36,330 nt of DNA from Candidatus Hydrogenedentota bacterium (GTDB taxonomy: Bacteria; Hydrogenedentota; Hydrogenedentia; Hydrogenedentales; SLHB01). The stretch lies in contig JACRLJ010000036.1 in the NCBI GenBank assembly GCA_016215105.1, forward strand, positions 1 to 36,330. Direction: 5' to 3'. Each line of letters begins with the position of its first letter. The stretch's first letter is position 1. The notes beneath the pieces were generated by a model. It saw only the letters and a list, made by a program, of their open reading frames with translations, was not told the DNA's origin and ran no database searches. Below, in pieces: positions 11,495 through 31,060 of the stretch. The position numbers were made by a program, and so were the translations under genes.

Positions 11495-11526
11495 CGTTGG
11501 TTGCTCTATCTACGAATATTAGTGTC

Positions 11527-11683
11527 GCGAAAAGCAGGGACAGACACGCTTTTCCAACCGCCGAAAAGCGAGTCAGTGCCTGGTTTTCGCTTGGGCTCGG
11601 TGTTTGTTGCGCGCATGCCGCGAAAAGCAGGGACAGACACGCTTTTCAAACTACCGAAAAGCGAGTCAGTCCCTGTTTTTCGC
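11527..11683. repeat. 93-bp tandem repeat with 64-nt imperfect palindromes, locus 1 (two units)
   Basis: Units lie at 11527-11590 and 11620-11683, joined by a 29-nt spacer (11591-11619). Each unit is an inverted repeat: the left arm begins GCGAAAAGCAGGGACAGACA, the right arm ends with CTGGTTTTCGC or CTGTTTTTCGC, and an 8-nt centre lies between. The 28-nt arms match at 24 and 25 positions. A single-stranded copy would fold into a long hairpin. The same structure and spacer recur at 30749-30998. It resembles REP/REPIN elements mobilised in trans by RAYT (Y1) transposases; no such gene lies in this window. Confidence 0.88.
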
Positions 11684-11715
11684 TCCCAATTGCGGAACTT
11701 GGGATCAACGTGACA

Positions 11716-11770: not shown

Positions 11771-13204
11771 TTAGTTGGGCTTATAGTCCGCGGGGATCTT
11801 GATCACCACGGGCATGGGGCGTTCGCCGCCTCGAATGACACGCAGCAGGATGGTTTTTCCGGGCTGGGCCTTCTGAGCGATGAGATCGCGGAATTCGGTC
11901 ACGCCGTTCACGGGTTGCTGGGCGATCTCGGTGATGATGTCACCGCGTTGGATATCGGAGTCGGCGGCGGGGCTGTCCGGGGCGATGTCCATAACGACGA
12001 CGCCTTTTGTACCGGGTTCGACGCCGAGGCGTTCGGCCAACTCCGGGGTAAGTCCTTGAATTTTGACGCCGAGGGAGGACTTGGCTTTGGCTCCTTCGCG
12101 GGCCTCTTCCGGCTTGTATTCCTCGACTTTCACGTCGACGGAAATGATTTGGCCTTTGCGCCAGACTTCGAGTTTCGCCGTGGCTCCGGGTTGCACTTCG
12201 GAGATACGTCTCACGAGTTCATCGGGCCCCTTGATGGGCTCTCCGTTGACCTTTCGGATGATGTCGTCATAGAGGATTCCGGCCTTCTGCGCGGGGGTGT
12301 TCTCGACAACAGACACGACGTAGGCGCCGACGTCGTCGGGCAGGCTGAGGGCGTCTTTGAGATTGCGGTTGACGGGCTGAACTTGCACGCCGAGGAAGCC
12401 ACGGACAATGTGTCCTTTGGCGATGAGTTCGGGAAGGACCTCTTTCACCTTGTTTACGGGGATAGCGAATCCGAGGGACTGGGCTCCCCAAACGATGGCG
12501 GTGTTGATACCGATGACCTGACCTTCGATGTTGACGAGGGGTCCGCCGCTGTTGCCGAGGTTGATTGCGGCGTCGGTTTGAATGAAGTTTCTGAAGCGGA
12601 TGCGGGGCAGGTCAACTTCGTTTCGTCCGAGCGCGCTGATGTGCCCGAAGGAGACGGAGCCTTCGAATCCACGCGGACTACCCATGGCGACGGCGAATTG
12701 GCCGACTTTGACGGAGTCGGAATCGCCGAAGACGACGACTGGCAAGTCCTTTTTGGGGTCGATTTTGATGACGGCGATATCAGTATCGGGGTCTCTTCCG
12801 ACGACGGTTGCTTCGAATTTGGAGTTATCGTGGAGGGTGACCTCGATGGTGTCGGCGTTTTCGACGACGTGGTTGTTGGTGATGATCATGCCTTCCTTGC
12901 TGTAGATGAACCCGGAGCCGACGGCGGTTTGCTTACGCGGGGTTCTTCCGTGGGGGTTGTTTGGTCCGGGTCCGGGTATGCCGAAGAACTTGAACAGGTC
13001 GTTGTAGTCGTCGGGATCCTGGGGTCCCATATCGTCCTTCTTGCCCTGGATTTCGATACTCACGACCGCGGGTAGGACTTGGTCGGAGAGCTTCACGAAG
13101 GCGTCTTCGAACTCGCGGAGCAGGGGCGTGATAGCGCGCGCGGGCAGGGCAAGCCCCGCCACGGCCAGCGCGGCGACAAGGAACACTCGAGTGATGGTTT
13201 TCAT
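11771..13204 (-). CDS. degP: Periplasmic serine protease HtrA/DegP-type (Do family)
   Basis: The 477-residue product begins with a signal peptide (MKTITRVFLVAALAVAG, ending PARA). The trypsin-like domain has the full triad: His112 in TNNHVV, Asp142 in DTDIAVIKI, and Ser219 in NLGNSGGPL. Two PDZ domains follow (GFLGVQVQPV and SLGVKIQGLTPELAERLGV), as in DegP/DegQ. It degrades or refolds damaged envelope proteins. The ATG overlaps the glnD stop (ATGA) and has AAAGGAGG inside the end of glnD. It is the last gene of the minus-strand operon and is followed by a stem-loop. DegP versus DegQ cannot be settled here. Confidence 0.94.
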   Translation of the reverse strand: MKTITRVFLVAALAVAGLALPARAITPLLREFEDAFVKLSDQVLPAVVSIEIQGKKDDMGPQDPDDYNDLFKFFGIPGPGPNNPHGRTPRKQTAVGSGFIYSKEGMIITNNHVVENADTIEVTLHDNSKFEATVVGRDPDTDIAVIKIDPKKDLPVVVFGDSDSVKVGQFAVAMGSPRGFEGSVSFGHISALGRNEVDLPRIRFRNFIQTDAAINLGNSGGPLVNIEGQVIGINTAIVWGAQSLGFAIPVNKVKEVLPELIAKGHIVRGFLGVQVQPVNRNLKDALSLPDDVGAYVVSVVENTPAQKAGILYDDIIRKVNGEPIKGPDELVRRISEVQPGATAKLEVWRKGQIISVDVKVEEYKPEEAREGAKAKSSLGVKIQGLTPELAERLGVEPGTKGVVVMDIAPDSPAADSDIQRGDIITEIAQQPVNGVTEFRDLIAQKAQPGKTILLRVIRGGERPMPVVIKIPADYKPN

Positions 13205-15903
13205 TGGGAACCTCCTTTGGTTTCTACGGCAGGCCTGGGATGGATGGCGTCCAAGAGGCCATCGCGGATCACGGCCTGCGCTTCTTCGTCCACGATTTTT
13301 GAATTACCCATAGTAACATAGAACGAGTCACGCACACGGCGCGCGTCGGTGGCGATATGCGCGGAGGCAATGTCGAGTCCCTCTTTAGCGAGCGCGTGCG
13401 TGATGTCGTACAAGAGTCCGGTTCGGTCGCCGGTTTCGATATCGACGACGGTATGTGATCGGGATGAGTTGTTATCGAATTCGACCCGCGTACGCACTTG
13501 CGTGCGGGGTTGGAGCAAGGCGAACAGGCGGCGGCGCGACTGGTCGACATAGGTCTGGATGTCCTGGTTTTCGAGGAGCACGGCGCGCAGCACGCGTTCA
13601 AACGCTTTGAACTCCTCTTCGGTCAAGGGCCGGCGGAAGCGGGCGTCGGTGACGGTGAAGCAATCGACCACGAAACCATCGGGCCGGGTGAAGAGCGCGG
13701 CTCCGTTGACATCGACGAGTTGCGAGGTGAAGCTTCCCGCGATTTTGGAGAAGAGTCCGTGCTGGTCCTGTGTACTGACGACGACCTCGCTCATTCCGGT
13801 TTCCGGGTTCTGGGTACAGCGCACGGCCAATCCAGTTTGTTCGGCCTCGGCGACGCATTCGACGTGTATGGCGATGTGGTGTGGCGAGAACGCGAAGAAG
13901 TACCGCTCACCGAGGAATCTCAACTGTTCTTGGACTCGCGGGCGCAGTTCAGGTTTCAGTTGTTCGGCGGCCTCTTGGGCTTTTTGGGCTTTCCAGTATT
14001 CCTCTTCCATGCTTTCGGATCGGCCGAGCAGAATTCTCTCGGATTTCAGGTAGAGTTTGAGGAGGAGCGCTCCTTTCCAATCGGTCCAGACATCGGGTCC
14101 GACTGCGGAGAGGTCGGCGTAGGAGAGAATGAAGAGCGCGCGCAGGCGCTGTTCGCTTTTCATGGTGGTGGCGAAGCTGCGCACGATATCGTCGTCGTCG
14201 ATATCGCGGTACTGGCTTATTTCGGTCATGAGTTGGTGATGCCGGACGAGAAAGGCGATGCGGTCTTCGTCATCTTCGCTCATTCCCATGCGTTTGCAGA
14301 TTTGGCGGGCGAGGAGGACGCCTTGCTCGATATGGATTTCGCCGGCCGCTTTTCCGAAGTCGTGGAATAGGACGGCCATAACAAGAATGTAGGGGTCGGA
14401 CAGGTGCTCGATGGCTTTGTGCAGGCATCCGATGACGGGGCCTTCGTCGTCCTGGAGTCTTGCGAGCGCTTCAATTGCGCGCAGGGTGTGCTCATCGACC
14501 GGGTAGTGGTGGAAGTCCTCGTAGCGGATGATGCCTTGAATTGCGGCGAATTCGGGCAGATAGCGTCCGAGTAGTCCGACATTTGCGGCTTGGCGCAGCG
14601 CGTGTCCGGCTTGAAAAGGGCGGTTGCAGATTGCGGTGAAGAAACGGCGGACGAGGTCGTTCGACTGGAAGGTGGGTCCGACGAGGGCCAAGTTGGCGGT
14701 CACCATGCGTTCGGTTGGGCGGCTGAGCACGGCCATATGGCGCGCGCATTCCCAGAAGACTTCCATGACGCGCGCGGGTTGTTCGGCGAACCAGTTCTCG
14801 TCGCCGAGTCCGGCGTAGATTTCACCGTCTTCGATTGCGATGGCGGGGACTTGTGGGCGCGGGGAATCGAGGAGGTTGGCGGATGCCTGGTAGTTGCAGA
14901 GGCGCGCCGCGATTCGGAGAAAGCGGCGGAGTTGGCGCGCGGCGGCGTAGTAGTCCTGCATGAAACGCGAGACGTTTTGCGCTCCGGCGGTTGTGTAGCC
15001 GAAGGCGGCGGCGACATGGCGCTGATTCTCGAAGCTGAGGCGGTCATCAACTTTTCCGGCATGGAAATGCAGTTCGTTACGAATACGCCAGATGAAGTCG
15101 AGCCCCTCGACGAAATCGAGTTGTTCTTCGGGATCGACGAGTTCCTGGCTGACGGCCTCATCGAGAGACCCCAAGCCGTGAGAGACCATGAGGAGCCAGA
15201 TAGCGGTGTGAAAGTCGCGGAGTCCGCCGGCATTTTCCTTGATTTGGGGGTCGGGCCGGTAGAGGTCTTGCAGCTCGGCGGGCAATTCTTCGTGCCGTTC
15301 ACGGATTTTTGTTTTGATGAAGGTGTCGGGGAAGCCTCGCGCGAGGAGTTCGCGCATGGACAGTTTGAGGCGGGCGTATACGGTGTTGTCTCCCGCGATG
15401 AGGCGGCATTCGAGAAAACTGGTAAAGGCCTTGAGGTCCTCGTTGGCGAGATCGAGCGCTTCGCGCACGCTTCGGATGGCGTATCCGACGGGCACGCCGA
15501 TGTCCCACAGGAAGGGCACGAGGTAGCTGTTGAGGCAGGTGAGGTTTTCATCCAAGGCGCCGTCATACAGTAGGCAGACGTCGAGGTCGGAATAGGGGCT
15601 CAGTTCGGCGCGGCCGTATCCGCCGAGGGCGCAGAGGGAGGCGCGGTCCATGAGATTGCGGCCGTTTGGTACGCTGGCCAGGCCGAAGCGCAGAATTCCC
15701 CTCAGCACGGAGTCGGCGATTTCGGCGAGCATTCGGACGACGTTGCTTCCCGATTCGCCTCGGGTGTGGCGATCCTGCACGATAGCGCGCCGTTGCGTTA
15801 TGTAGGCGCGTGCCGCTTCAACACACTCTTGACGGCTGACACTTTCGAAGGCTTCGCTGTCGAGTGTAGCGAGGGACACTAATTCGTTAAAGGAACGGGT
15901 CAT
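13201..15903 (-). CDS. glnD: [Protein-PII] uridylyltransferase/uridylyl-removing enzyme
   Basis: Bifunctional nitrogen sensor that adds UMP to PII when glutamine is low and removes it when glutamine is high. I start it at 15903, where ATG overlaps the upstream batE stop as ATGA; the frame is open further upstream, but that sequence is batE in another frame. The 900 residues match the usual size of about 890. The nucleotidyltransferase motif GGYGRAELSPYSDLD lies at residues 94-108. The HD domain carries YPVDEHTLRAI and VLFHDFGKAAGE. Two C-terminal ACT domains read STQDQHGLFSKIAGS and ETGDRTGLLYDITHA. All key motifs are present. No PII gene is in the window, and its place in a Bat operon is unusual. 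Confidence 0.95.
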   Translation of the reverse strand: MTRSFNELVSLATLDSEAFESVSRQECVEAARAYITQRRAIVQDRHTRGESGSNVVRMLAEIADSVLRGILRFGLASVPNGRNLMDRASLCALGGYGRAELSPYSDLDVCLLYDGALDENLTCLNSYLVPFLWDIGVPVGYAIRSVREALDLANEDLKAFTSFLECRLIAGDNTVYARLKLSMRELLARGFPDTFIKTKIRERHEELPAELQDLYRPDPQIKENAGGLRDFHTAIWLLMVSHGLGSLDEAVSQELVDPEEQLDFVEGLDFIWRIRNELHFHAGKVDDRLSFENQRHVAAAFGYTTAGAQNVSRFMQDYYAAARQLRRFLRIAARLCNYQASANLLDSPRPQVPAIAIEDGEIYAGLGDENWFAEQPARVMEVFWECARHMAVLSRPTERMVTANLALVGPTFQSNDLVRRFFTAICNRPFQAGHALRQAANVGLLGRYLPEFAAIQGIIRYEDFHHYPVDEHTLRAIEALARLQDDEGPVIGCLHKAIEHLSDPYILVMAVLFHDFGKAAGEIHIEQGVLLARQICKRMGMSEDDEDRIAFLVRHHQLMTEISQYRDIDDDDIVRSFATTMKSEQRLRALFILSYADLSAVGPDVWTDWKGALLLKLYLKSERILLGRSESMEEEYWKAQKAQEAAEQLKPELRPRVQEQLRFLGERYFFAFSPHHIAIHVECVAEAEQTGLAVRCTQNPETGMSEVVVSTQDQHGLFSKIAGSFTSQLVDVNGAALFTRPDGFVVDCFTVTDARFRRPLTEEEFKAFERVLRAVLLENQDIQTYVDQSRRRLFALLQPRTQVRTRVEFDNNSSRSHTVVDIETGDRTGLLYDITHALAKEGLDIASAHIATDARRVRDSFYVTMGNSKIVDEEAQAVIRDGLLDAIHPRPAVETKGGSQ

Positions 15904-16691
15904 TTCGTATTCCCTGATTGAGGAGGGTCTTGCGCCGATTTTGGCGTAGTGGGTTCGTAGGGCGGCCCCACGAAGATGAGGCTGGAGTCTGGAGTCCAGC
16001 CAGTTTCGCCACCCGCGGTCTTGACGCGCGCCCATCCCCGTTCACGGCGATCCACCGTCACACGATCTCCTTCGTGCAATTCGAACCGCACAGTTTGATT
16101 GAGGTCAGTTCCGTAGCGCACGGGAACGGCTTCGTCCGCGGCGACGGCAAGAGTACCGGTACTGGATTTGGCCCAGGCGGAGGCCCCGAACGCCAAGGCG
16201 AGGATTGCGGTTACGGCGGCGACGCCTTGCACGTATCGGGCTGGCCGGAATTGGCGTATTGCGAGTGTGATCCAGAAGGCGAGCCAAAACGCGAGCGCGA
16301 GCCACCGCGTAACCGACGACGGCAAGTGATAGTGCCAGAAGAGGAGGCTCTGCTCCCAGTCGGGGGGGAGTGGCCGTGCGAGGCGCTGCTGTGTTTCGCT
16401 CACGCAATGCGCGAGATTCTGGCGCGCGCTATCGAATCCGGGGTCGAGTTGCAGGGCGCGTTCGTAGTTGGCGATTGCGGGCGCGAGCTTTCCGGCGCGG
16501 TAGTAGGCGTTGCCGAGATTGTAGAACACGGCGGCGTGGAAGGCTTGTTCCGAGACGAGTTGCTCGAAGGCCTGAATGGCTCCGGAGTAGTCACCGGTCT
16601 TGTAGTGGTCATTGGCGCGAGTGAAGGTTTCAGTGTAGGCGTTGCCCTGCGCCGTGAGTAATGACGCTACTATGAGAATGGTGGCGCTCAT
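15900..16691 (-). CDS. batE: BatE-like protein: TPR repeats, two membrane helices, SH3-like domain
   Basis: The 263-residue product has an N-terminal hydrophobic segment and TPR repeats (HYKTGDYSGAIQAFEQL, FYNLGNAYYRAGKLAPAIAN, YERALQLDP). Two hydrophobic helices follow (LALAFWLAFWITLAI; VAAVTAILALAFGA), then a C-terminal SH3b-like domain (VRFELHEGDRVTVDRRERGW, GETGWTPDSSL). This matches BatE of Bat (aerotolerance) clusters, probably a scaffold at the membrane. Start and stop both overlap the neighbours by 4 nt (ATGA with batD and glnD). The biochemical role of the family is not established. Confidence 0.85.
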   Translation of the reverse strand: MSATILIVASLLTAQGNAYTETFTRANDHYKTGDYSGAIQAFEQLVSEQAFHAAVFYNLGNAYYRAGKLAPAIANYERALQLDPGFDSARQNLAHCVSETQQRLARPLPPDWEQSLLFWHYHLPSSVTRWLALAFWLAFWITLAIRQFRPARYVQGVAAVTAILALAFGASAWAKSSTGTLAVAADEAVPVRYGTDLNQTVRFELHEGDRVTVDRRERGWARVKTAGGETGWTPDSSLIFVGPPYEPTTPKSAQDPPQSGNTK

Positions 16692-18505
16692 ACCTTGGCG
16701 TCCTTGGCGACCGATTCGAGTTTGTTCATGGCGGTGTCCGCGGCGTTCGTGAGGGCCTTGATTTCATCATCGGAGAGCTTGACGGCGGCGTACCGGGCTC
16801 GTTCGCAGGCTTTGACGATTTTGACGATGCTTTCGGTGAGTTCGGAGCCGGTTTTTTTTGTTTCGAGCAACTGGCGCAGATCGGAGGAAGTCAGTCCGGC
16901 GCTGGCGACGTTGAATTTGTCTGCTACGAAGCCGGTTACGGCGCGGCAGAGTTCCTCGGCGGGTTCGGCGGCCTGCGCAACAGCGAGGAGGCGCTTGTGT
17001 GCATTCGATTTTGCGAAATAGGATCGCGCGTAGGCGGAATCGTGTTCGAAGCGCCGGCGGCGGGCCATCATAAACGCGAGGCCGGCGTAGGCCAATGCGG
17101 GGACGACGCCGGCAGTGATGTTAACCACTGCGGATGGACGGTAGGGGCGCAGCGAAGGCGGCGCGTCGACGTTGGGGAGAATGTCCTTCCCGGTGATGTT
17201 GACTTTCCCGTGCGTTACGGGGATTTCCTTGGTGACGATTGCGGCGCCGGCCTGTTCGGCGGATGGACGAGCGTCCATATCGAAGGGGCCGACGACTTGT
17301 GTAGCGTAGCGTTCCGTTGCGGGGTCGAAATAGCAGAATTCGATGGGAGGGATAGTGAGTTTGCCTGATTCCAGCGGCGTGATGGTATAGATGAATTCCT
17401 TGGTGACGATTCCGGTCGAGGAGTCCACATTGGGTGGCGCAACGGTGTCAGCTTTGGAGACGGTTGCGCCGGCGATGGGAGGCAGTTTTGGTTCGCCAAT
17501 CGAGTCGGGATTTCCGTCGCCCTGTACTTCGAGCGAAAGTTTGAAGGGAACACCTTGGATCGCGGTCTTGGGCGCAGGGGCCGTCATGCTCTGGCGAAAC
17601 GTGAAGGTTCCTACGGCGCCGCTGAAGTTAGGTGGTTGCGGCGGCAGGGGCTTCACGGTGATGGCAATGGGGTCGGTGGCGAGGGCGTATTCCTGGCGGA
17701 GGAGACGTCCGCTGCTTGTGCGCATCAGCGCTTCTCCGTTGAACTGCCATGAGCCTATGTTCAGCTGTCCGGTGCGGGTGGGGTAGAGTTTTTGTGTGAG
17801 TTGGAGGAGATGGTAGGGCCAATTCCCACGGGTGCGGTCTTCTTGGCGCGGCTCGAGTTCGGTGGTGTAGAAACCCTCGGTGTCCGGGTAGCCGGGGTCC
17901 GCGCTCCGATAGGGGCTGGCCTGAACTCCGCTCAATACCCATCGGCTCAGAGTAAGTTGCACGGCCTCGCCTTGATAGACGGATTGCTTATCGACTTCGG
18001 CGGTAACGAGTACGGCGTCTTCCGGCGTGGGGGTGCGGTCAGGCGCGGCGGCGTTCGCGGCGGCATCGGAGTCTTGAACGGCTTCCTGGCGGACCGGTTG
18101 CTGCGCGCGCGGTATTGGCGCGGTTGCCTTTCCCTCGAGGACGGTGAGATCGATTGGCATCGAGCTTATTTCCTTGCCATCAACGCGGGCGGTAATGGGG
18201 GGGATGATGACTTTTCCGGGCCGGGTCGCGGTGGCCTTGTAAATCAACGTCTGGGACTGGGACATGGCTCCGTTGACAATCGAGAGCTGGTTCGACCGCT
18301 GGACGGGGACGGGCTCGATGGCTAGTCCGTCGGCGTCAGAAATCTTTGGGGCTTCGCTTCTTCCTCCGGTGATCTCGACTTTGAGTCCGAACGGATTGTT
18401 TGCGCGCACGGTGGTTTGTTCGACCGAGACCCGTATGGCGGGTTCGCCCCATGCGGAACAGGCGGCGAGCACGGCGAGGGCGCTAAGAAATGAACGCGTC
18501 ACCAC
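16688..18505 (-). CDS. batD: BatD protein (oxygen-tolerance family)
   Basis: The 605-residue product has a signal peptide and BatD-type beta domains: RVSVEQTTVRANNPFGLKVE, then QSQTLIYKATATRPGKVIIP and a second copy with EFIYTITPLESGKLTIPPIEF. Next come a transmembrane helix (VVNITAGVVPALAYAGLAFM) and a cytoplasmic helical tail ending near AKDAKV. BatD proteins are membrane-anchored partners of the VWA proteins BatA and BatB. The start is GTG 18505, with AGGAGG provided by the Arg-Arg codons at the end of batC; the two genes overlap by 7 nt. GTG 18502 is an alternative start. Confidence 0.9.
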   Translation of the reverse strand: MVTRSFLSALAVLAACSAWGEPAIRVSVEQTTVRANNPFGLKVEITGGRSEAPKISDADGLAIEPVPVQRSNQLSIVNGAMSQSQTLIYKATATRPGKVIIPPITARVDGKEISSMPIDLTVLEGKATAPIPRAQQPVRQEAVQDSDAAANAAAPDRTPTPEDAVLVTAEVDKQSVYQGEAVQLTLSRWVLSGVQASPYRSADPGYPDTEGFYTTELEPRQEDRTRGNWPYHLLQLTQKLYPTRTGQLNIGSWQFNGEALMRTSSGRLLRQEYALATDPIAITVKPLPPQPPNFSGAVGTFTFRQSMTAPAPKTAIQGVPFKLSLEVQGDGNPDSIGEPKLPPIAGATVSKADTVAPPNVDSSTGIVTKEFIYTITPLESGKLTIPPIEFCYFDPATERYATQVVGPFDMDARPSAEQAGAAIVTKEIPVTHGKVNITGKDILPNVDAPPSLRPYRPSAVVNITAGVVPALAYAGLAFMMARRRRFEHDSAYARSYFAKSNAHKRLLAVAQAAEPAEELCRAVTGFVADKFNVASAGLTSSDLRQLLETKKTGSELTESIVKIVKACERARYAAVKLSDDEIKALTNAADTAMNKLESVAKDAKV

Positions 18506-19509
18506 CAGTCCCTCCTCATTCGGATCGAGCCGCGGGGATTTTGCATATCCTTCTGTTCGCGGTTGTCCTGCGCTTCGAGGGAATCGAGGATGGCTTCGAT
18601 AGACTGCTGATCGGGTTTTTGTTTTTCGTTTTGCTGGGCGGAGTTTTGATCTTGCGACTGTTGCTGATTGTCATTCTTCTTGGCTTCGGCCAATTGCTGC
18701 TTCTTTTCCGCTTCGGTGGACTTGTCGCCGTCTTTGTTGTTCTGGTCCGAGTTTTTCTCGGAATCTTCCTTATCTTTGCCGTCTTGTTGTTGGGCCTGCG
18801 CTTGTTTCTGTTCCTGGCTTTGGCCCTGCTCGCCTTGCTGGTCCTTTTTGTCGCCCTCGGCGCTTTGTCCTTGTTGCTTCTGTTCCGACTCTTGTTCTTT
18901 GCCGGGGTCTTCTTTCTTTTGGTCTTGTTTGCCCTGGCCGTCTTGTTTTTGTTCCTGGGGTTTCGGCGGGTTCTGGAGCAGCTTCTTGAGGAGGTAGCGG
19001 GCGTGGTCAAGATTGTTTCTCGCGGCGGTGTCGTTCGGATTTCTTTTCAGCAGTTCCTCGTATTGCCCGATGGCGGACTTGAATGCATCGGTGGCGGCCT
19101 TGCCGTCGCCCGCTTTTGCGGAGAGCTCGGCGAGGCGCGTGCCGGTGTTTGCGCCATTGTAGATGGCTTGACGGCGGATGCGTTCGTCGGGGCTCAGGCT
19201 GGCCTTTGCGAATGAGTCTCGCGCGGCCTTGAAGTTTTCGATGGCGTGTTCGGGTGATGGGGATTCGATTTCCTGTTCTCCCTGCTTGTATTGCGCGCAT
19301 CCTTGGCCGTAATAGAGCAGGTGGGATTCGGGGTCATCGGTTTGGAGGTCGCGGTACATGGAGAGAGCGCCGCCGGGGTCGCCGTTGATGAGCTGGCGGT
19401 TGGCCTTTCTTACGCGCTGGTTGAAGGAGTCACCGTAGGCGTTGGCGGCGCACGCGACCGCGAGGAGAAGCGCGGCGGCAATTCCGGAGGTCAGTTTAGA
19501 CTTTGGCAT
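18499..19509 (-). CDS. batC: BatC-like TPR protein with long Gln/Lys/Glu/Asp-rich tail
   Basis: The 336-residue product starts with a signal peptide (ending ANAYGDS). TPR-like helices follow to about residue 180 (RQLINGDPGGALSMYRDLQ; IGQYEELLKRNPNDTAARNN). The next 130 residues are almost only Q, K, E, D, G, N and S and are expected to be disordered. The last residues, RRDWW, echo the conserved C-terminal Trp of the BatC family. It is probably periplasmic and binds BatA and BatB. The start has AGGAGGAGG upstream and overlaps batB by 14 nt. The tail makes homology calls beyond the TPR part unreliable. Confidence 0.87.
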   Translation of the reverse strand: MPKSKLTSGIAAALLLAVACAANAYGDSFNQRVRKANRQLINGDPGGALSMYRDLQTDDPESHLLYYGQGCAQYKQGEQEIESPSPEHAIENFKAARDSFAKASLSPDERIRRQAIYNGANTGTRLAELSAKAGDGKAATDAFKSAIGQYEELLKRNPNDTAARNNLDHARYLLKKLLQNPPKPQEQKQDGQGKQDQKKEDPGKEQESEQKQQGQSAEGDKKDQQGEQGQSQEQKQAQAQQQDGKDKEDSEKNSDQNNKDGDKSTEAEKKQQLAEAKKNDNQQQSQDQNSAQQNEKQKPDQQSIEAILDSLEAQDNREQKDMQNPRGSIRMRRDWW

Positions 19510-20626
19510 GGGCCTCCTCCTGTCGCTCTCGCGACGTTTGGGGCTGGCGCGTTCGGCGCGCCCGGAGGATTGGAAGCACGGTGAGCCAGAGTCCTTCGGC
19601 GGCGAAGCATAGAATGGCCAGGCCGAGCGGCCATTGATAGCGATTCACGAGACGCAAGCGGACGTCGCTTCCGACGTCGCGGGTCGCGAGTTTGGCGATG
19701 AGATCGGTGAGCTGATCGATATCCGAGTTGTCGGGGGTGGATCGGGTGTATCCGCCGTTTCCTTCGAGGGCGATCTTGGTGAGGGTTTCTTCATCGAGCT
19801 TGGAGAGGTGTGTGCGATCGGCGTCGCGAACTTGGACGTAGCGTTCGAGGTCTTCCGGGAATTTGATTTCGACGCCATTGGGATCGCCGACACCGATCAC
19901 GTAGATATGGGCGTATTTTCCGGCTTCTTTCGCGGCCTCGACAATACGTTCTTTCGCCTTTTCGGCGTTTTCGGCATCTGCCTCGTCGCCGTCGGAAATG
20001 AGAAGAATGGCGCGCGCATCGCGGTTGAAGTCGTCGGTGTGTTCGTCTTCGTCTTTGAAAGTCTTGGCGGCTTCTTTGAGCGCGGCGGCGATGTTAGTGC
20101 CTTTTTCGCTGATGGTATCGGTGTCGACGGCCTTGAGCACGGCGTGGAAGTAGCCGTGGTCGCGGGTGAGGGGGCATTGGAGTGCGGCGCCTCCGGCGAA
20201 GGCGACGAGGCCGAAGCGGTCGGCGGATTCACGTTCGAGAAGGGCGATGATTTTTTGTTTTGCGCGTTCCAATCGGCTCGGCGGCGGATTGATGGCGCGC
20301 ATGCTTTCGGAGGTGTCGAGCACGACCAAGACGTCGTGGCTTCGGCGCTGGATATTCTGCCAGGACTGCCCCCAGTGCGGCTGAGCGAAGGTGACGGCCA
20401 AGGCTACGACGCCGAGCATGGTGAACCAATGGAGAGGACGGCGCAGGGGGGCTTCGGCTCCGAGGGCCAGGCGTGGCGCCAAGTTGGCGTCGGCGAAGCA
20501 GGCGAGCCGTTGTTTGCGGCGGCGTTCGAGGAGCGCGAGTCCGAACGCGACGAGGGCAACGATGGCAAGGGCGAGGCCGAGCCACCAGTGCAACTGGCGC
20601 AGAGGGAATATGAATCCTGCGTTCAT
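19496..20626 (-). CDS. batB: BatB: membrane-anchored VWA-domain protein
   Basis: The 376-residue product has two N-terminal membrane helices (LHWWLGLALAIVALVAFGLA; HWFTMLGVVALAVTFA) and a von Willebrand A domain with the metal-site motif DTSES (VVLDTSESM). ISDGDEADAE and a C-terminal helix near WPLGLAILCFAAEGLW follow. It pairs with BatA as a metal-dependent adhesion module thought to be a client of the MoxR ATPase. The start is 9 nt after the batA stop, with AGGA about 8 nt upstream. Confidence 0.92.
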   Translation of the reverse strand: MNAGFIFPLRQLHWWLGLALAIVALVAFGLALLERRRKQRLACFADANLAPRLALGAEAPLRRPLHWFTMLGVVALAVTFAQPHWGQSWQNIQRRSHDVLVVLDTSESMRAINPPPSRLERAKQKIIALLERESADRFGLVAFAGGAALQCPLTRDHGYFHAVLKAVDTDTISEKGTNIAAALKEAAKTFKDEDEHTDDFNRDARAILLISDGDEADAENAEKAKERIVEAAKEAGKYAHIYVIGVGDPNGVEIKFPEDLERYVQVRDADRTHLSKLDEETLTKIALEGNGGYTRSTPDNSDIDQLTDLIAKLATRDVGSDVRLRLVNRYQWPLGLAILCFAAEGLWLTVLPILRARRTRQPQTSRERQEEAHAKV

Positions 20627-20635
20627 CGAAGCGTC

Positions 20636-21688
20636 CTACGGGATTGTTTCAAACCAGAGTCTACGGGAGAAGACGGAGCCTAACAGGGCGATGGCGCCGA
20701 CGACGGCGTAGGGGACAAATCCTTCTTGAAAGTCGTAGTAGTCGCCGGTAATGACTTCGGTGGTTTCCAGTTTGCTGATTTCATCGTACGCGTTTCTCAG
20801 CGATTGGGTATCGGAGGCGCGGTAGTAGCGCCCGCCGGTCAATTTGGCGATGCGTTCCAGGAGCGCGTCGTCAACAGGGGCGTCGATCACGCCCATGGTG
20901 GTTCCGAAAATGCTTTGTTGGGGTATGAGGGCCTGACCGCGCGAACCCGCGCCGATGGTGTATACCCGGATGCCGTAGTCTTTGGCGATTTGTCCGGCGG
21001 TTGCGGGGTCCAATTGGCCGGCGTTGTTCATTCCGTCCGTGAGGAGGATGACGATTTTCGATTTGGCTTCGGATTTCATGAGGCGCTTGACGGCGAGTCC
21101 GAGCGCGGAGCCGATGGCGGTGCGTTGTTTTCGCGCGTCGGAGTGGTCGACGTGGGCGGAGGCGATTTCGCGTTGGAGGACGCCGTAATCGAGCGTCAGA
21201 GGGCACTGGGTCCAGGCGTAGCCGCCAAAGAGAATCAAGCCGGTGCGGTCCAGGCCGTAGCGGTCCATTTTGTTGTCTTTGCGGCTTTCGACGAAGTCGT
21301 GTAGGACGCGTTTGGTGATGTCGAGGCGGCTGACATATTGATTGTCGAGGACATAGTCTACGGCTTCCATACTGCCGGAGACGTCCGCGCAGACCATGAT
21401 GTCGATGACCTCGGCGCGATCCTTGTGCGCCTGCAGGCCCTGGAGAGGGCGCGCGAGGGCGAAGAGCAGAAAGGCCAGCCCGAGGGCGCGCAGCACGGCG
21501 GGAACCCAACGGGCCAGAATGGCGCGGCGAGATTGAATCGCGGCAAGGGATTCGCCGGTTGAAATGGTCATGACTCCCGGGGCGCGGGCGGCGACTTCAG
21601 CGACGAGCAGGGCGAGGACCGCGAGCAGCAATAGCAGCACCCAGGGGTGCGTGAAATGGCTGAAGTGGAATGGCTCGAGGAGTCTCAT
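20636..21688 (-). CDS. batA: BatA: membrane-anchored VWA-domain protein
   Basis: The 350-residue product has two N-terminal hydrophobic helices (WVLLLLLAVLALLVAEVAA; LRALGLAFLLFALARPL), then a VWA domain with an intact metal site ADVSGSM. The rest of the fold includes LILFGGYAWTQCPLTLD, IVILLTDGMNNAG and YTIGAGSRG. A C-terminal helix (YAVVGAIALLGSVF) completes the BatA layout. Its start overlaps the upstream DUF4381-like gene by 4 nt and has AGGAGGAGG before it. Confidence 0.92.
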   Translation of the reverse strand: MRLLEPFHFSHFTHPWVLLLLLAVLALLVAEVAARAPGVMTISTGESLAAIQSRRAILARWVPAVLRALGLAFLLFALARPLQGLQAHKDRAEVIDIMVCADVSGSMEAVDYVLDNQYVSRLDITKRVLHDFVESRKDNKMDRYGLDRTGLILFGGYAWTQCPLTLDYGVLQREIASAHVDHSDARKQRTAIGSALGLAVKRLMKSEAKSKIVILLTDGMNNAGQLDPATAGQIAKDYGIRVYTIGAGSRGQALIPQQSIFGTTMGVIDAPVDDALLERIAKLTGGRYYRASDTQSLRNAYDEISKLETTEVITGDYYDFQEGFVPYAVVGAIALLGSVFSRRLWFETIP

Positions 21689-22608
21689 GCGGCCTCCTCC
21701 TGCGCGGGTTCCGGCCGGGGCACGGTCTCGTCAATGAAGTTCAGGACGAGGGACATGCTGTGGTCCATTTCGGAGACGGTGGGCTGGAACTGGGCGAATT
21801 TCACGCGGTCGCTGTGGCGGAGGAATCCGGCGAGCAGTTTTTGGTGGTCGTCGGTTAGGGCGCCGGCGCCGGAGGCCTCGGCGAGGAACTCCGGTGTGGT
21901 GCGTTCGGGAGCGTGGAGCGTGAAGCGGTCTTCGATGTAGTGGCGCAGAATATCCGAGAGTTCGACGTAGAACGGCTCGTATTGGCCGGCCTGGGGGAAC
22001 TGGCGGGCATCGAGTTCGCGCAGGCGCTCATAGGCGCGCTCCCACGCGGGCCGGGGTGGCGGGGCCACGGCAATCTTGGGCTTGGTCCAGTAGCGATACG
22101 CGAACCATGCCGCCACGGCCAGGGCGAGGGCGCCAGCAGCGGAGACGATGGCGGTTCTCGTGAACAATGGATTGGGCGGATCGATGGGGCCGGTGACGGG
22201 TTCGACGCGCTCGGCGGCTTCTTGCTCTTCGGGGGTCAAGTTGCGCACACGCAGGGCGGGCGAGGGGACCGTTACGGCCAAGGCGTCGTTCGAGTAGATG
22301 GCCGCGGCGGCGATGAAGTAGTCCTTTACGAGAATTGGATCGAGTGTGTAGGTGTTGCTAACACGGGTACGATTGCCGCTCAGCGTTTCCCGTTTGAGTA
22401 TTGGCGGGCCGGAGATATCGACACCGCCAAACTTTCCCGCCATGTCGGGAAGCTTGATTTCGGCGCCGGCGGGGGCTTCGACCGTGATGGTATAGGTGGC
22501 TTGCTTATTGAAGGGGATAGCAGACGGTTCGAGCGTGACATACGCGTCGATTCCGTCCGGCGCGGCGGCACCGAGGAGCATGAGGGCTAGACTGACGAGG
22601 CCGCTCAC
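21685..22608 (-). CDS. DUF4381-like membrane protein of the Bat cluster
   Basis: The 307-residue product has a signal peptide, a BatD-like beta domain (VTLEPSAIPFNKQATYTITVE) and one membrane helix (IVSAAGALALAVAAWFAY). The cytoplasmic tail carries AWERAYERLRELD, FYVELSDILRHYIEDRF and DRVKFAQFQP, as in DUF4381 proteins beside moxR-DUF58-batA genes. The function is unknown; a link between the ATPase and the VWA proteins is a reasonable guess. The start is GTG 22608, overlapping the previous stop (GTGA), with AAGGAGG upstream. The end overlaps batA by 4 nt. Confidence 0.82.
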   Translation of the reverse strand: MSGLVSLALMLLGAAAPDGIDAYVTLEPSAIPFNKQATYTITVEAPAGAEIKLPDMAGKFGGVDISGPPILKRETLSGNRTRVSNTYTLDPILVKDYFIAAAAIYSNDALAVTVPSPALRVRNLTPEEQEAAERVEPVTGPIDPPNPLFTRTAIVSAAGALALAVAAWFAYRYWTKPKIAVAPPPRPAWERAYERLRELDARQFPQAGQYEPFYVELSDILRHYIEDRFTLHAPERTTPEFLAEASGAGALTDDHQKLLAGFLRHSDRVKFAQFQPTVSEMDHSMSLVLNFIDETVPRPEPAQEEAA

Positions 22609-23867
22609 GACTTGTCTTCCTCCTTCTTGAGGCGTTCGGGGTAGAGCTTGACGTCGCGCGCTTTGAGGGTGTCCTCGATGAGCGCGTTGACTTGTTCCTG
22701 TTCCTTTTGCCTGCGGAACATTTTCTCGGCCTGCGGCTTTACTTCGTCGAAGGCGGGCGTCTTCGCGGGCGTTTTCGAGATGACTTGAAAGACGTACCAG
22801 CGGTCTTCGATCTGGAGCGGGGCTGTGGTGGCGCCAGCGTCCGCGGCGAAAATGCTCTTGGTCGCCTCCGGCGCATCGGGCAGTCCGGGAATACGTCCAC
22901 TTGCGGAGACTGTAACGGGGTCTTTGGGGAAGTCCGTCAGGGACTTGGCCGCGGCTTCGGTGTCCGCCTCGCCGATCTTCACTTGGGCTGTGGCGGGTTG
23001 GGTGAAGCGTTTCGTTTCCGCGTTGTAGAAGCGCTGTACGTCCTCGGGTGTGACGGTGACTTTGGACTGGACTTCGTTCTCGATGAGTTTTCGGACGATG
23101 AGCGCGTTGCGTTGGCCGGCCATATCCTGTTCGACTTTGGGGTCCTTCTCGAGGCCAAGGCGCAAGGCCTTGTCGACGAGGAGGCGCTCGACCACGATAT
23201 TCTTGAGGAAGTCCGCTTTCTTTTCCGGGGATTCGATGGACTGGCGCACTTGGACCGGCAAGCGGTCCATTTGGGCTTCGAGATCGCGATCCGTGATTAC
23301 TTCGCCGGCAAACTCGGCGATGATGGTTTCTCCGGTCTGGAGATCGGCGGCGGTGCGTTTGGGGGAGGTGCGCTTTTTCAATTCGCGGCGGAGATCGGCG
23401 GAACGTCCGGTTTTGTCGAGACAGAAGACAATCTTCTTGTCAATCTCCGACTTGAGATCGGAGTTGGGGTCGATCTTTTCGGCTTGGTAGAGGTACGCGA
23501 GGGCCCTATCGAATTGTTCGGTGTCAACGGCTAGCGTGGCGACGCTGTAGCAGATCTTGGCGCGGGCGCCGGGTTCGAGCGTGGCGCGATCCAGGTACTT
23601 GTCGTAGGCGGCGATGGCTTCGGAGTTGAGTTTCTTGTCGGCGAGGTAGGCCGCGTATTCCCGCCATTGATCGGTAGTCAGGCCGCCGGCGCCGGCGGTG
23701 TTGTTCTTTTCTTTGAGGACATAGGGCAGTCCGACGAGTAGCGCGGCGGAGACGACGACCGCGGTTACGAGGGAAGACAGCAGGATGGGGCGGAGACTCG
23801 ACTTCGCGGGGGCCGGTTGGTTTTGCGCGCGAAACTCCTTTAGGCGGTCTGGTGCGATATCAGGCAT
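22605..23867 (-). CDS. Membrane-anchored parvulin/SurA-like protein with degenerate PPIase domain
   Basis: I start it at ATG 23867, after GGGAG, overlapping the DUF58 stop by 8 nt; the open frame upstream lies inside DUF58. The 420-residue product has a short cytoplasmic N-terminus, one membrane helix (PILLSSLVTAVVVSAALLVG), TPR-like helices (LADKKLNSEAIAAYDKYLD; FDRALAYLYQAEKIDP) and a SurA_N-like segment (EVITDRDLEAQMDRLP...VERLLVDKALRLGL). A short parvulin-like domain follows (PATAQVKIGEAD...APLQIEDRWYVFQVISKTP). The catalytic His and usual parvulin loops are not evident, so chaperone rather than isomerase action is more likely. Confidence 0.75.
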   Translation of the reverse strand: MPDIAPDRLKEFRAQNQPAPAKSSLRPILLSSLVTAVVVSAALLVGLPYVLKEKNNTAGAGGLTTDQWREYAAYLADKKLNSEAIAAYDKYLDRATLEPGARAKICYSVATLAVDTEQFDRALAYLYQAEKIDPNSDLKSEIDKKIVFCLDKTGRSADLRRELKKRTSPKRTAADLQTGETIIAEFAGEVITDRDLEAQMDRLPVQVRQSIESPEKKADFLKNIVVERLLVDKALRLGLEKDPKVEQDMAGQRNALIVRKLIENEVQSKVTVTPEDVQRFYNAETKRFTQPATAQVKIGEADTEAAAKSLTDFPKDPVTVSASGRIPGLPDAPEATKSIFAADAGATTAPLQIEDRWYVFQVISKTPAKTPAFDEVKPQAEKMFRRQKEQEQVNALIEDTLKARDVKLYPERLKKEEDKS

Positions 23868-24315
23868 AGCGGCGCTCCCGCATACGGAAAAACCGGTAGA
23901 TCTCCTCGACGTACGAGCGGTCGGTGCGGACGCGGATGGCGTCCACGCGGGTACGTTGCAGGATTTGGTCGCGCTGTTTGGCGCGCTCGATGGCGGCCTT
24001 GGCGTAGTCACTGCGGACTTTGGTGTCGCTGGAATTCACGAGGATTTCGCGACCCGTTTCGGCGTCCCGCAGGGAGATGAGTCCGACGTTTGGCAGCTCC
24101 TCCTCACGGGGGTCGGTCACGGTCACGGCAATGACGTCGTGGCGTCTATTGGCGATGCGCAGGGGGATCTCGTAATCGTTGGCCATAAAGTCAGACACGA
24201 GGAAGGTGACTGCGCGGCGTTTGAGGACGCCATTCATGAAATGGAGCGCTCCGGGGATATTCGTGCCGACTCCTTTGGGTTCGAAATAGAGGACTTCGCG
24301 AATTACGCGCAGCAC
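23860..24315 (-). CDS. DUF58 protein, C-terminal part of an interrupted gene
   Basis: The 151-residue ORF is the C-terminal half of a DUF58 protein: VLRVIREVLYFEP, GVLKRRAVTFLVSDF, DPREEELPNVGLI, RTDRSYVEEIYRFFR. In-frame likeness continues upstream to about 24420 (AVLAFSAIKNNDKVGLI...VPPSKGRK), beyond the nominal GTG start at 24315, which has no ribosome site. DUF58 proteins are VWA-like partners of MoxR and are usually near 290-300 residues. The segment with the metal-binding DxSxS motif is absent here. The N-terminus is in another frame at 24396-24548. As it stands, the gene cannot give a normal product. Confidence 0.8.
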   Translation of the reverse strand: MLRVIREVLYFEPKGVGTNIPGALHFMNGVLKRRAVTFLVSDFMANDYEIPLRIANRRHDVIAVTVTDPREEELPNVGLISLRDAETGREILVNSSDTKVRSDYAKAAIERAKQRDQILQRTRVDAIRVRTDRSYVEEIYRFFRMRERRYA

Positions 24316-24395
24316 GTGTTTTCGCCCCTTGCTGGGGGGGACGTAAAGCTCGACGTCATTGGTGAAGATGATGAGGCCGACTTTGTCGTTGTTTT

Positions 24396-24548
24396 TTATG
24401 GCGGAGAAGGCAAGTACGGCGCAGAGTGGAATTCCATGCCTTGGCCCTTGAACACGCTCTCGTATTGGCCGGCCAGGATGTCGTTGACCATGTGGCTGGT
24501 GCGAATTTGAATCCGGCGGATCTGCTTCATGACTTCCTGGGGGATCAT
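24396..24548 (-). pseudogene. DUF58 N-terminal fragment (same interrupted gene)
   Basis: ATG 24548 has an excellent ribosome site (GGAGG, 8 nt upstream) and encodes a typical DUF58 start: MIPQEVMKQIRRIQIR, MVNDILAGQYESVFKGQGMEF. After about 43 residues the frame leaves the family and ends at TAA (24396-24398). The family sequence resumes one frame over at 24420, but at a point some 60 residues further along the usual protein. This looks like an internal deletion of roughly 180-200 nt that also shifted the frame, or an assembly error. The deletion size is estimated from memory of the family. Confidence 0.78.
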
Positions 24549-24690: not shown

Positions 24691-25677
24691 CTAGGGCACC
24701 GGCACAGCGTCGAGGATTTTACGGACGATGTCTTCGCTGGTCATGTTTTCGGCCTCGGCTTCGTAGGTTACGATGACGCGATGCCGAAGGATATCCATGG
24801 CGACTTGCTTGACGTCGTTCGGGAAGACATTGCCTTCCCCTTGCAGGAACGCGAGGGCGCGCGCGGCCTGTTGAAGGTAAATGGTTGCTCGCGGTGACGC
24901 GCCGTATTCGATGAGATGGTTGAGCTTGAGGCCGAACGCGTCGGGGGTGCGAGTCGCCTGGACAATATCAACGATATAGTTCTTGGCCTTGGCGTCCACG
25001 TAGATGGCGTTAACGACTTCGCGGGCCTGGATGATTTCCTGTTTGGTGACGACGGGCCGGACTACGGCGTTGTGGAGAATGTCCACGCGGTCCATGATTT
25101 CGCGTTCTTCAGCGCGGGTCGGGTAGGTGACTTTGAGTTTAAGCATGAAGCGGTCAACCTGGGCTTCGGGAAGTGAATAGGTTCCTTCCTGCTCGATGGG
25201 GTTTTGAGTTGCGAGAACCATAAAGGGTTCGTCGAGCGGAAAAGTGTTGTCGCCGATGGTGACCTGGCGTTCCTGCATGGCTTCGAGCAGGGCGCTCTGG
25301 ACCTTGGCAGGGGCGCGGTTGATTTCGTCGGCGAGGATGATGTTTCCGAAGATGGGGCCCTTCTTGGTGGTGAACGTGCTGTCCTTGGGGCTGTACACCA
25401 GGGTTCCGATTAGGTCGGCGGGCAAGAGGTCCGGGGTGAACTGGATGCGGCTGAACTGGCATGCGATGGACTGGGCGAGCGTTTTGGCGGCGGTGGTGTT
25501 GGCCAATCCGGGGACGCCTTCGATGAGGACATGCCCGTTGGCGAGGATTCCGACGAGGAGGCGGTCGATCATGTACTGCTGGCCGATGACGACCTTTGCA
25601 ATCTCTTCGCGCAAGCGGTTGACGAAGAGACTCTGGGCCTCGACGTTTCGGCGGATGGCGTCAACGGATTGGGTCAT
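24691..25677 (-). CDS. moxR: MoxR-family AAA+ ATPase with altered Walker A motif
   Basis: The 328-residue product has the full MoxR layout: VVIGQQYMIDRLLVGILANGHVLIEGVPG, Walker B IILADE at residues 114-118, LLEAMQERQVTI, the ATQNPIEQEGTYSLPEAQ sensor region, and YGASPRATIYLQQAARA. MoxR ATPases act as chaperones that mature VWA-domain partners such as BatA and BatB. The Walker A loop reads GVPGLANT, so the invariant Lys is Asn60 (AAC, complement of 25498-25500). If real, nucleotide binding should be impaired. The start overlaps the upstream gene by 4 nt, with GAGGAG 9 nt before it. Confidence 0.93.
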   Translation of the reverse strand: MTQSVDAIRRNVEAQSLFVNRLREEIAKVVIGQQYMIDRLLVGILANGHVLIEGVPGLANTTAAKTLAQSIACQFSRIQFTPDLLPADLIGTLVYSPKDSTFTTKKGPIFGNIILADEINRAPAKVQSALLEAMQERQVTIGDNTFPLDEPFMVLATQNPIEQEGTYSLPEAQVDRFMLKLKVTYPTRAEEREIMDRVDILHNAVVRPVVTKQEIIQAREVVNAIYVDAKAKNYIVDIVQATRTPDAFGLKLNHLIEYGASPRATIYLQQAARALAFLQGEGNVFPNDVKQVAMDILRHRVIVTYEAEAENMTSEDIVRKILDAVPVP

Positions 25678-30548: not shown

Positions 30549-30748
30549 AGGCATTAGCGGTTTGAGTATGCAGTAGGGTCAACGACTATGCGGCGTCGAA
30601 TATTGACCACCTTCGTGTTTGTTCATAGAGTCGGAGTTTCGCGGCGTAATTCGATTCGGGAAGGACTACACGTTCTCGGGCGTTGTATGAGTCGTCCTAG
30701 ATCCAAGCACAAAATCAGGGCCAGAAATCCCGTGTTCTTAGTGTATTC

Positions 30749-30998
30749 GCGAAAAGCAGGGACAGACACGCTTTTCAAACTACCGAAAAGCGAAACGGTC
30801 GCTGGTTTTCGCTTGGGCTTCGTGTTCGTAGCGCTATTGCCGCGAAAAGCAGGGACAGACACGCTTTTCAAACTACCGAAAAGCGAGTCAGTCGCTGGTT
30901 TTCGCTTGGGCTTGGTGTTGGTTGCGCGATTGCCGCGAGAAGCAGGGACAGACAGGCTTTTCAAACCGCCGAAAAGCGAGTCAGTTCCCGCCTTTCGC
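30749..30998. repeat. 93-bp tandem repeat with 64-nt imperfect palindromes, locus 2 (three units)
   Basis: Units lie at 30749-30812, 30842-30905 and 30935-30998, separated by 29-nt spacers (30813-30841, 30906-30934) that resemble the locus 1 spacer (TTGGGCT...GTGTT...GCC). Unit starts are exactly 93 bp apart in both loci. Units 1 and 2 share the left arm with locus 1; unit 3 differs by GAGAAGC and GACAGGC. The right arm of unit 1 has diverged more (22 of 28 arm positions pair). The array ends 62 bp before the DUF1501 start. Confidence 0.9.
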
Positions 30999-31060
30999 TC
31001 GACTGCGGCGTTCAGTTAAGTTGCGTGAATCTTGGACCACCGCACTAGGAGAATTGCATC

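Follow-up and report, generated by a model that had tools for sequence, protein, structure and literature searches.

Here we describe a 36,330-nucleotide stretch of contig JACRLJ010000036.1 (hereafter the window), from the Candidatus Hydrogenedentota assembly GCA_016215105.1, whose minus strand carries a MoxR-Bat gene cluster that leads from batE directly into glnD, encoding the [protein-PII] uridylyltransferase, and from glnD into htrA, encoding a Do-family protease. MoxR-DUF58-batABCDE operons are known from Bacteroides aerotolerance and from the MoxR family. Judging from gene order and junction structure, we consider it likely that the window holds a MoxR-Bat operon extended behind batE by glnD and htrA, with shared expression as the link and with an ordinary GlnD. 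The three genes concerned, their junctions and the ribosome-binding site embedded in the second junction are as follows (the window genome is labelled G000 in the comparisons; other G numbers denote genomes and L numbers denote loci):

15900-16691, minus strand: batE (TPR and SH3-like), stop codon TGA; from domain and family profile matches
13201-15903, minus strand: glnD, [protein-PII] uridylyltransferase, 900 amino acids (aa), stop codon TGA at 13201-13203; from TIGR01693
11771-13204, minus strand: htrA/degP (Do family, trypsin-like domain and two PDZ domains); from TIGR02037 and Pfam
15900-15903, minus strand: batE/glnD overlap of 4 nucleotides (nt), ATGA, formed by the batE TGA and the glnD ATG
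13201-13204, minus strand: glnD/htrA overlap of 4 nt, ATGA, formed by the glnD TGA and the htrA ATG
13211-13218, minus strand: Shine-Dalgarno sequence of htrA, AAAGGAGG, in the final glnD codons, where it reads Lys-Gly-Gly

Both overlaps are exact, as the preliminary description of this locus had reported, and almost all relatives share these junctions, which argues that the overlaps exceed chance. Specifically, the 4-nt overlap is present at 38/48 batE/glnD and 31/52 glnD/htrA junctions of Hydrogenedentota (G058, flagged as being out of order, was left out of one junction tally), as well as at the glnD/htrA junction in 3/3 species of a second phylum (below). AGGA or GGAG lies inside the glnD end at 30/31 of the overlapping glnD/htrA junctions vs. 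3/21 of the non-overlapping ones, and its usual form at the former is AAAGGAG(G), coding for Lys-Gly-(Gly). That is, GlnD has a conserved Lys-Gly-(Gly) tail because the htrA ribosome-binding site occupies the last codons of glnD, an example of a protein end being shaped by an overlapping ribosome-binding site; among 88 GlnDs from other phyla, only one has Lys-Gly within its final nine residues. Even in G001 (L182), where glnD is decaying, the final codons with the htrA Shine-Dalgarno sequence are intact. Taken together, the conserved 4-nt overlaps and the Shine-Dalgarno sequence inside glnD strongly suggest that the translation of htrA is coupled to that of glnD.

The preliminary description had proposed a gene-neighbourhood comparison, and this bore out a linkage well beyond one genome. 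Among 68 Hydrogenedentota genomes from 11 families, GlnD was found in 57 (threshold E 1e-30), and profile searches on the stretches around glnD placed batE directly upstream in 48/51 readable genomes (exceptions: G025, G038, and G043) and htrA directly downstream in 51/53 (exceptions: G025 and G047). Both flanks were readable in 47 genomes and both were as expected in 44 of these, including G015 and G020, where glnD is split across two contigs. Left out of the flank counts were genomes with a contig edge upstream (six genomes) or downstream (four genomes) of glnD, as well as a second, truncated glnD copy in G052 (L076). As a control for the flanks, the largest common gene family behind htrA occurred in just 12/51 genomes. 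Recurrence in relatives therefore rules out that the linkage is unique to the window genome or a binning artefact. In G052, contigs L064 and L076 each carry batD-batE-glnD, and one of the two glnD genes ends at about 800 aa without an htrA behind it, reflecting either a strain mixture or a duplication.

The GlnD profile was run on 252 genomes in total, 184 of them from outside the phylum (threshold 1e-40 for the latter), and GlnD was present in 62 of these 184. We read 59 of the 62 neighbourhoods (G099, G137, and G180 were left out) together with a further 32 out-phylum loci, some of them short. The batE-glnD-htrA triad was present in G091 and G238, members of one family in a small phylum, and also in a third species, G252 (i.e., in 3/3 species of this phylum in our collection), and in none (0/57) of the remaining out-phylum glnD neighbourhoods. 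Within the stretches read, none of the 20 out-phylum bat clusters had glnD or htrA, consistent with the earlier statement that bat operons usually end with batE and that glnD usually lies elsewhere; the bat core was recognisable in most of the 20, with L301, L302, L305, L311, and L317 being cut short or atypical. The 0/57 and 0/20 counts rule out the triad as a general trait of glnD or of bat clusters, and its distribution in two phyla, with absence elsewhere, is most simply explained by glnD and htrA being a derived extension common to both. The two genes would have joined behind batE before Hydrogenedentota and the small related phylum split, and would have been kept since. Two further arrangements were observed outside the phylum. 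In the unrelated genome G130 (L237), glnD is immediately preceded by an HtrA-like gene, the reverse of the window's order, and this gene overlaps the glnD start by 17 nt according to a simple open reading frame (ORF) caller; in G081, HtrA, GlnD, and BatA are spread non-contiguously over some 20 kb of a single contig. Our searches of the open-licence PubMed Central (PMC) literature turned up no description of the batE-glnD-htrA linkage. The phylum-wide linkage of a central nitrogen-signalling enzyme with an envelope stress module is real and old, and apparently undescribed.

The remainder of the gene run in the window, upstream of batE and behind htrA, comprises the following features:

24691-25677, minus strand: moxR, AAA+ ATPase (AAA_3 and AAA_lid_2); from Pfam, with relatives 70-86% identical
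23902-24548, minus strand: DUF58/VWA gene, disrupted; from tblastn with the intact DUF58 of relatives
22605-24011, minus strand: PpiC-type rotamase-like protein; from PF13145
21685-22608, minus strand: ORF307, without Pfam match; a conserved bat-cluster member in this and other phyla
20636-21688, minus strand: batA (VWA); from domain and family profile matches
19496-20626, minus strand: batB (VWA); from domain and family profile matches
18499-19509, minus strand: TPR protein in a BatC-like position; from a weak TPR match
16688-18505, minus strand: batD; from PF13584
11716-11751, minus strand: perfect 12-bp hairpin after htrA, without a clear U run (z -5.1)

MoxR is thus followed on the same strand by BatA and BatB (VWA), BatD, and a TPR protein, as is characteristic of a MoxR-Bat operon, whereas the DUF58 gene expected behind MoxR is not intact in the window assembly. 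In this gene, homologue residues of about 3-50 and 107-281 lie in separate frames and about 56 residues are absent, which represents either decay or an assembly error; the homologue is intact in relatives (PF01882, 277 bits). The presence of all other core genes, and the intact DUF58 gene of relatives with this gene order, lead us to class the locus as a MoxR-Bat operon of variant form. The core order, MoxR-DUF58-(PpiC)-ORF307-BatA-BatB-TPR-BatD-BatE, is also that of most of the 20 clusters from other phyla, but the window cluster continues into glnD and htrA, neither of which follows in those 20. The annotated start of the PpiC-like protein is probably too far upstream.

The glnD product looks like a standard PII uridylyltransferase. 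It matches TIGR01693 at 612.8 bits (cut-off 519.4) over residues 40-883, and the motif GGYGRxELSPxSDLD, which we take to be the GlnD nucleotidyltransferase motif, includes G95, D106, and D108, all invariant among 17 aligned GlnDs, as are H514 and D515 of the HD domain (PF01966 at 469-572). Of the two C-terminal ACT domains expected of a GlnD, one scores above its cut-off (819-866), and the TIGR01693 match covers the whole GlnD C-terminus; a search with GlnD against sequences of solved structures gave no match at 1e-10. A longer, 944-aa ORF (13201-16035) was rejected as an over-extended glnD start; the 900-aa form from 15903 aligns to relatives. A second PF08335 protein of the genome was likewise rejected as a further GlnD; two PF03710 matches within one 998-aa frame identify it as GlnE. 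The window genome encodes two PII proteins with Tyr51 (L261 and L262).

What sets this GlnD apart is its location in a bat operon and the C-terminal tail imposed by htrA; its full-length profile match, its catalytic motifs, and its loss together with PII or with Tyr51 are those of a regular GlnD. The losses are informative in this respect. Specifically, glnD has been lost or has decayed in four separate lineages that keep bat and htrA, with batE running into htrA in three of the four, and the HtrA tree sets these losses apart at four positions, each neighboured by relatives that have glnD. Neither GlnD nor any PII-family (PF00543) protein is present in G048, G054, and G063 (95-96% complete), where batE is followed by htrA without a trace of glnD between them; glnD is also gone from G045 (84% complete), which has batE then htrA and encodes three PIIs with F, I, and V at position 51, the first of which is otherwise near the canonical kind; G001 has a decayed glnD before htrA, and its sole PII has V at position 51. 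By comparison, a Tyr51 PII is present in 24/25 of the glnD-bearing genomes examined, the PIIs being read from part of the PII sites found. No glnD was found in six more incomplete or fragmented genomes, five of which have a Tyr51 PII and one of which (G028) has V; one of the six, G002, is 91% complete. Among the 38 genomes of better quality (>=90% complete, <=5% contaminated), three are without glnD and PII, G002 is without glnD only, and G009 is without PII only.

The invariant motifs and the co-loss with PII or its Tyr51 therefore indicate that GlnD is most likely an ordinary PII uridylyltransferase acting on Tyr51; it would uridylylate and de-uridylylate this residue in response to glutamine. 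Several lineages with glnD have no GlnE (e.g., G037, G042, G050, G053, and G055, where weak matches fall inside glnD), and PII therefore probably has other outputs there. Further, since bat and htrA are kept after glnD is lost, bat-htrA has no need of GlnD, and glnD is a dispensable member of the operon.

The other partner, HtrA, matches TIGR02037 at 439 bits (cut-off 416.2), with Trypsin_2 and two PDZ_2 stretches. In these domains it resembles other Do-family HtrA/DegP proteases, and it differs from them in that the window htrA appears to be translationally attached to glnD; the window genome encodes more HtrA paralogues elsewhere. In the literature, MoxR-Bat systems have been linked to envelope or oxidative stress by a mechanism that is unclear. 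A bat deletion left the oxidant tolerance of Leptospira biflexa unchanged (PMC3557215), and a moxR deletion in Riemerella anatipestifer altered bat transcription and stress survival (PMC11834572). The Leptospira cluster, in which moxR and htpG stand together with the bat genes (PMC3557215), provides a precedent for a proteostasis gene beside bat; for glnD beside bat, no precedent turned up in our searches. Both HtrA and PpiC are in keeping with a module for envelope quality control, and HtrA would be an ordinary periplasmic Do-family protease in the same module as Bat, MoxR, and PpiC. In G025, G038, and G043, the usual cluster is replaced by a divergent bat cluster elsewhere (L185, L186, and L187), with an htrA paralogue before moxR and without glnD, whose BatA is just 38-40% identical to that of the window; in G038 and G043, glnD-htrA remains as a pair apart from bat. 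With this second, separate htrA-bat pairing, htrA looks like bat's natural partner, and glnD like a guest.

The preliminary description had gone further and suggested that this lineage regulates envelope stress and nitrogen signalling as one unit. This suggestion is not supported as it stands: bat and htrA outlive a working glnD in four lineages, glnD is kept outside the bat cluster in G025, G038, and G043, and we found no sequence evidence connecting GlnD activity to envelope stress. The first two of these observations also weigh against a functional wiring in which nitrogen status and envelope quality control would be co-regulated (e.g., glutamine limitation shifting Bat/HtrA, or GlnD/PII acting on the envelope module), an alternative that we regard as improbable and that the data do not call for. 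The linkage has been retained across the phylum despite turnover of flanking genes, and in G003 (L053 and L266) and G006 (L055 and L267) a Tyr51 PII gene follows htrA, so that enzyme and substrate are encoded close together. However, the HtrA tree places these two genomes as sisters, and the placement of PII may therefore be one event; we also identified neither a regulator nor a binding site. It likewise seems unlikely that nitrogen sensing in Hydrogenedentota and the related phylum is wired into envelope proteostasis, with the synthesis of GlnD tied to Bat/HtrA output such that the capacity for PII modification follows envelope stress or the reverse. If true, such wiring would represent a connection between signals that model bacteria are not known to have.

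Alternatively, glnD might have entered a strongly expressed operon once and stayed because its exit would break the overlapping htrA start, with no regulatory benefit. A careless deletion would indeed hurt htrA, whose start and ribosome-binding site lie inside glnD, and in lineages without glnD, htrA has its own ribosome-binding site. The order is, however, also kept at the 21/52 junctions where the two genes are separate, and we consider such hitch-hiking possible but rather unlikely. More doubtful is that these are merely adjacent genes transcribed separately from internal promoters before glnD or htrA. Such an arrangement has a precedent in Leptospira (PMC3557215), and relatives show gaps of 40-150 nt at some junctions, but the genes at this locus leave no space between them, and a scan for internal promoters returned four promoter-like sites vs. 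3.5 expected, that is, chance level, none of them convincing.

The joint expression of batE-glnD-htrA is well supported as the best reading of the sequence data; a few observations weigh against the overall reading given here. The majority of the genomes are fragmented metagenome assemblies, and 21/52 glnD-htrA junctions are without the 4-nt overlap. The Shine-Dalgarno-like sequences at batE/glnD are weaker (25/38). In G017 (78% complete), which has glnD, we found no Tyr51 PII, and no PII was found in G009, G015, and G066, which also have glnD. Finally, the bat genes of Leptospira biflexa, in spite of their operon-like order, seemed to have separate promoters (PMC3557215).

Under joint expression, one long transcript, starting ahead of moxR or of the gene that precedes it, would extend to the hairpin behind htrA, and ribosomes finishing glnD would re-initiate on htrA, so that HtrA output would track glnD translation. 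The link would be one of shared expression (dosage) rather than of a joint machine, because glnD goes with PII or its tyrosine and batE then meets htrA. The linkage gives a testable handle on GlnD and the Bat module in bacteria of which few, if any, have been cultured, and the repeated glnD losses represent a natural experiment in which glnD exits along with PII or with the tyrosine at which PII can be modified. These losses support the classical function of GlnD in an uncultured phylum and reveal which genes of the operon belong together.

Behind htrA, the hairpin is followed by two copies of a 69-nt palindromic repeat (11523-11591 and 11616-11684), and the gene run therefore probably ends there. 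A 176-nt query spanning both copies gave 50 matches in the genome, self and overlapping matches counted, consistent with a REP-like dispersed family; two long matches also fall within the window at 30738-31000.

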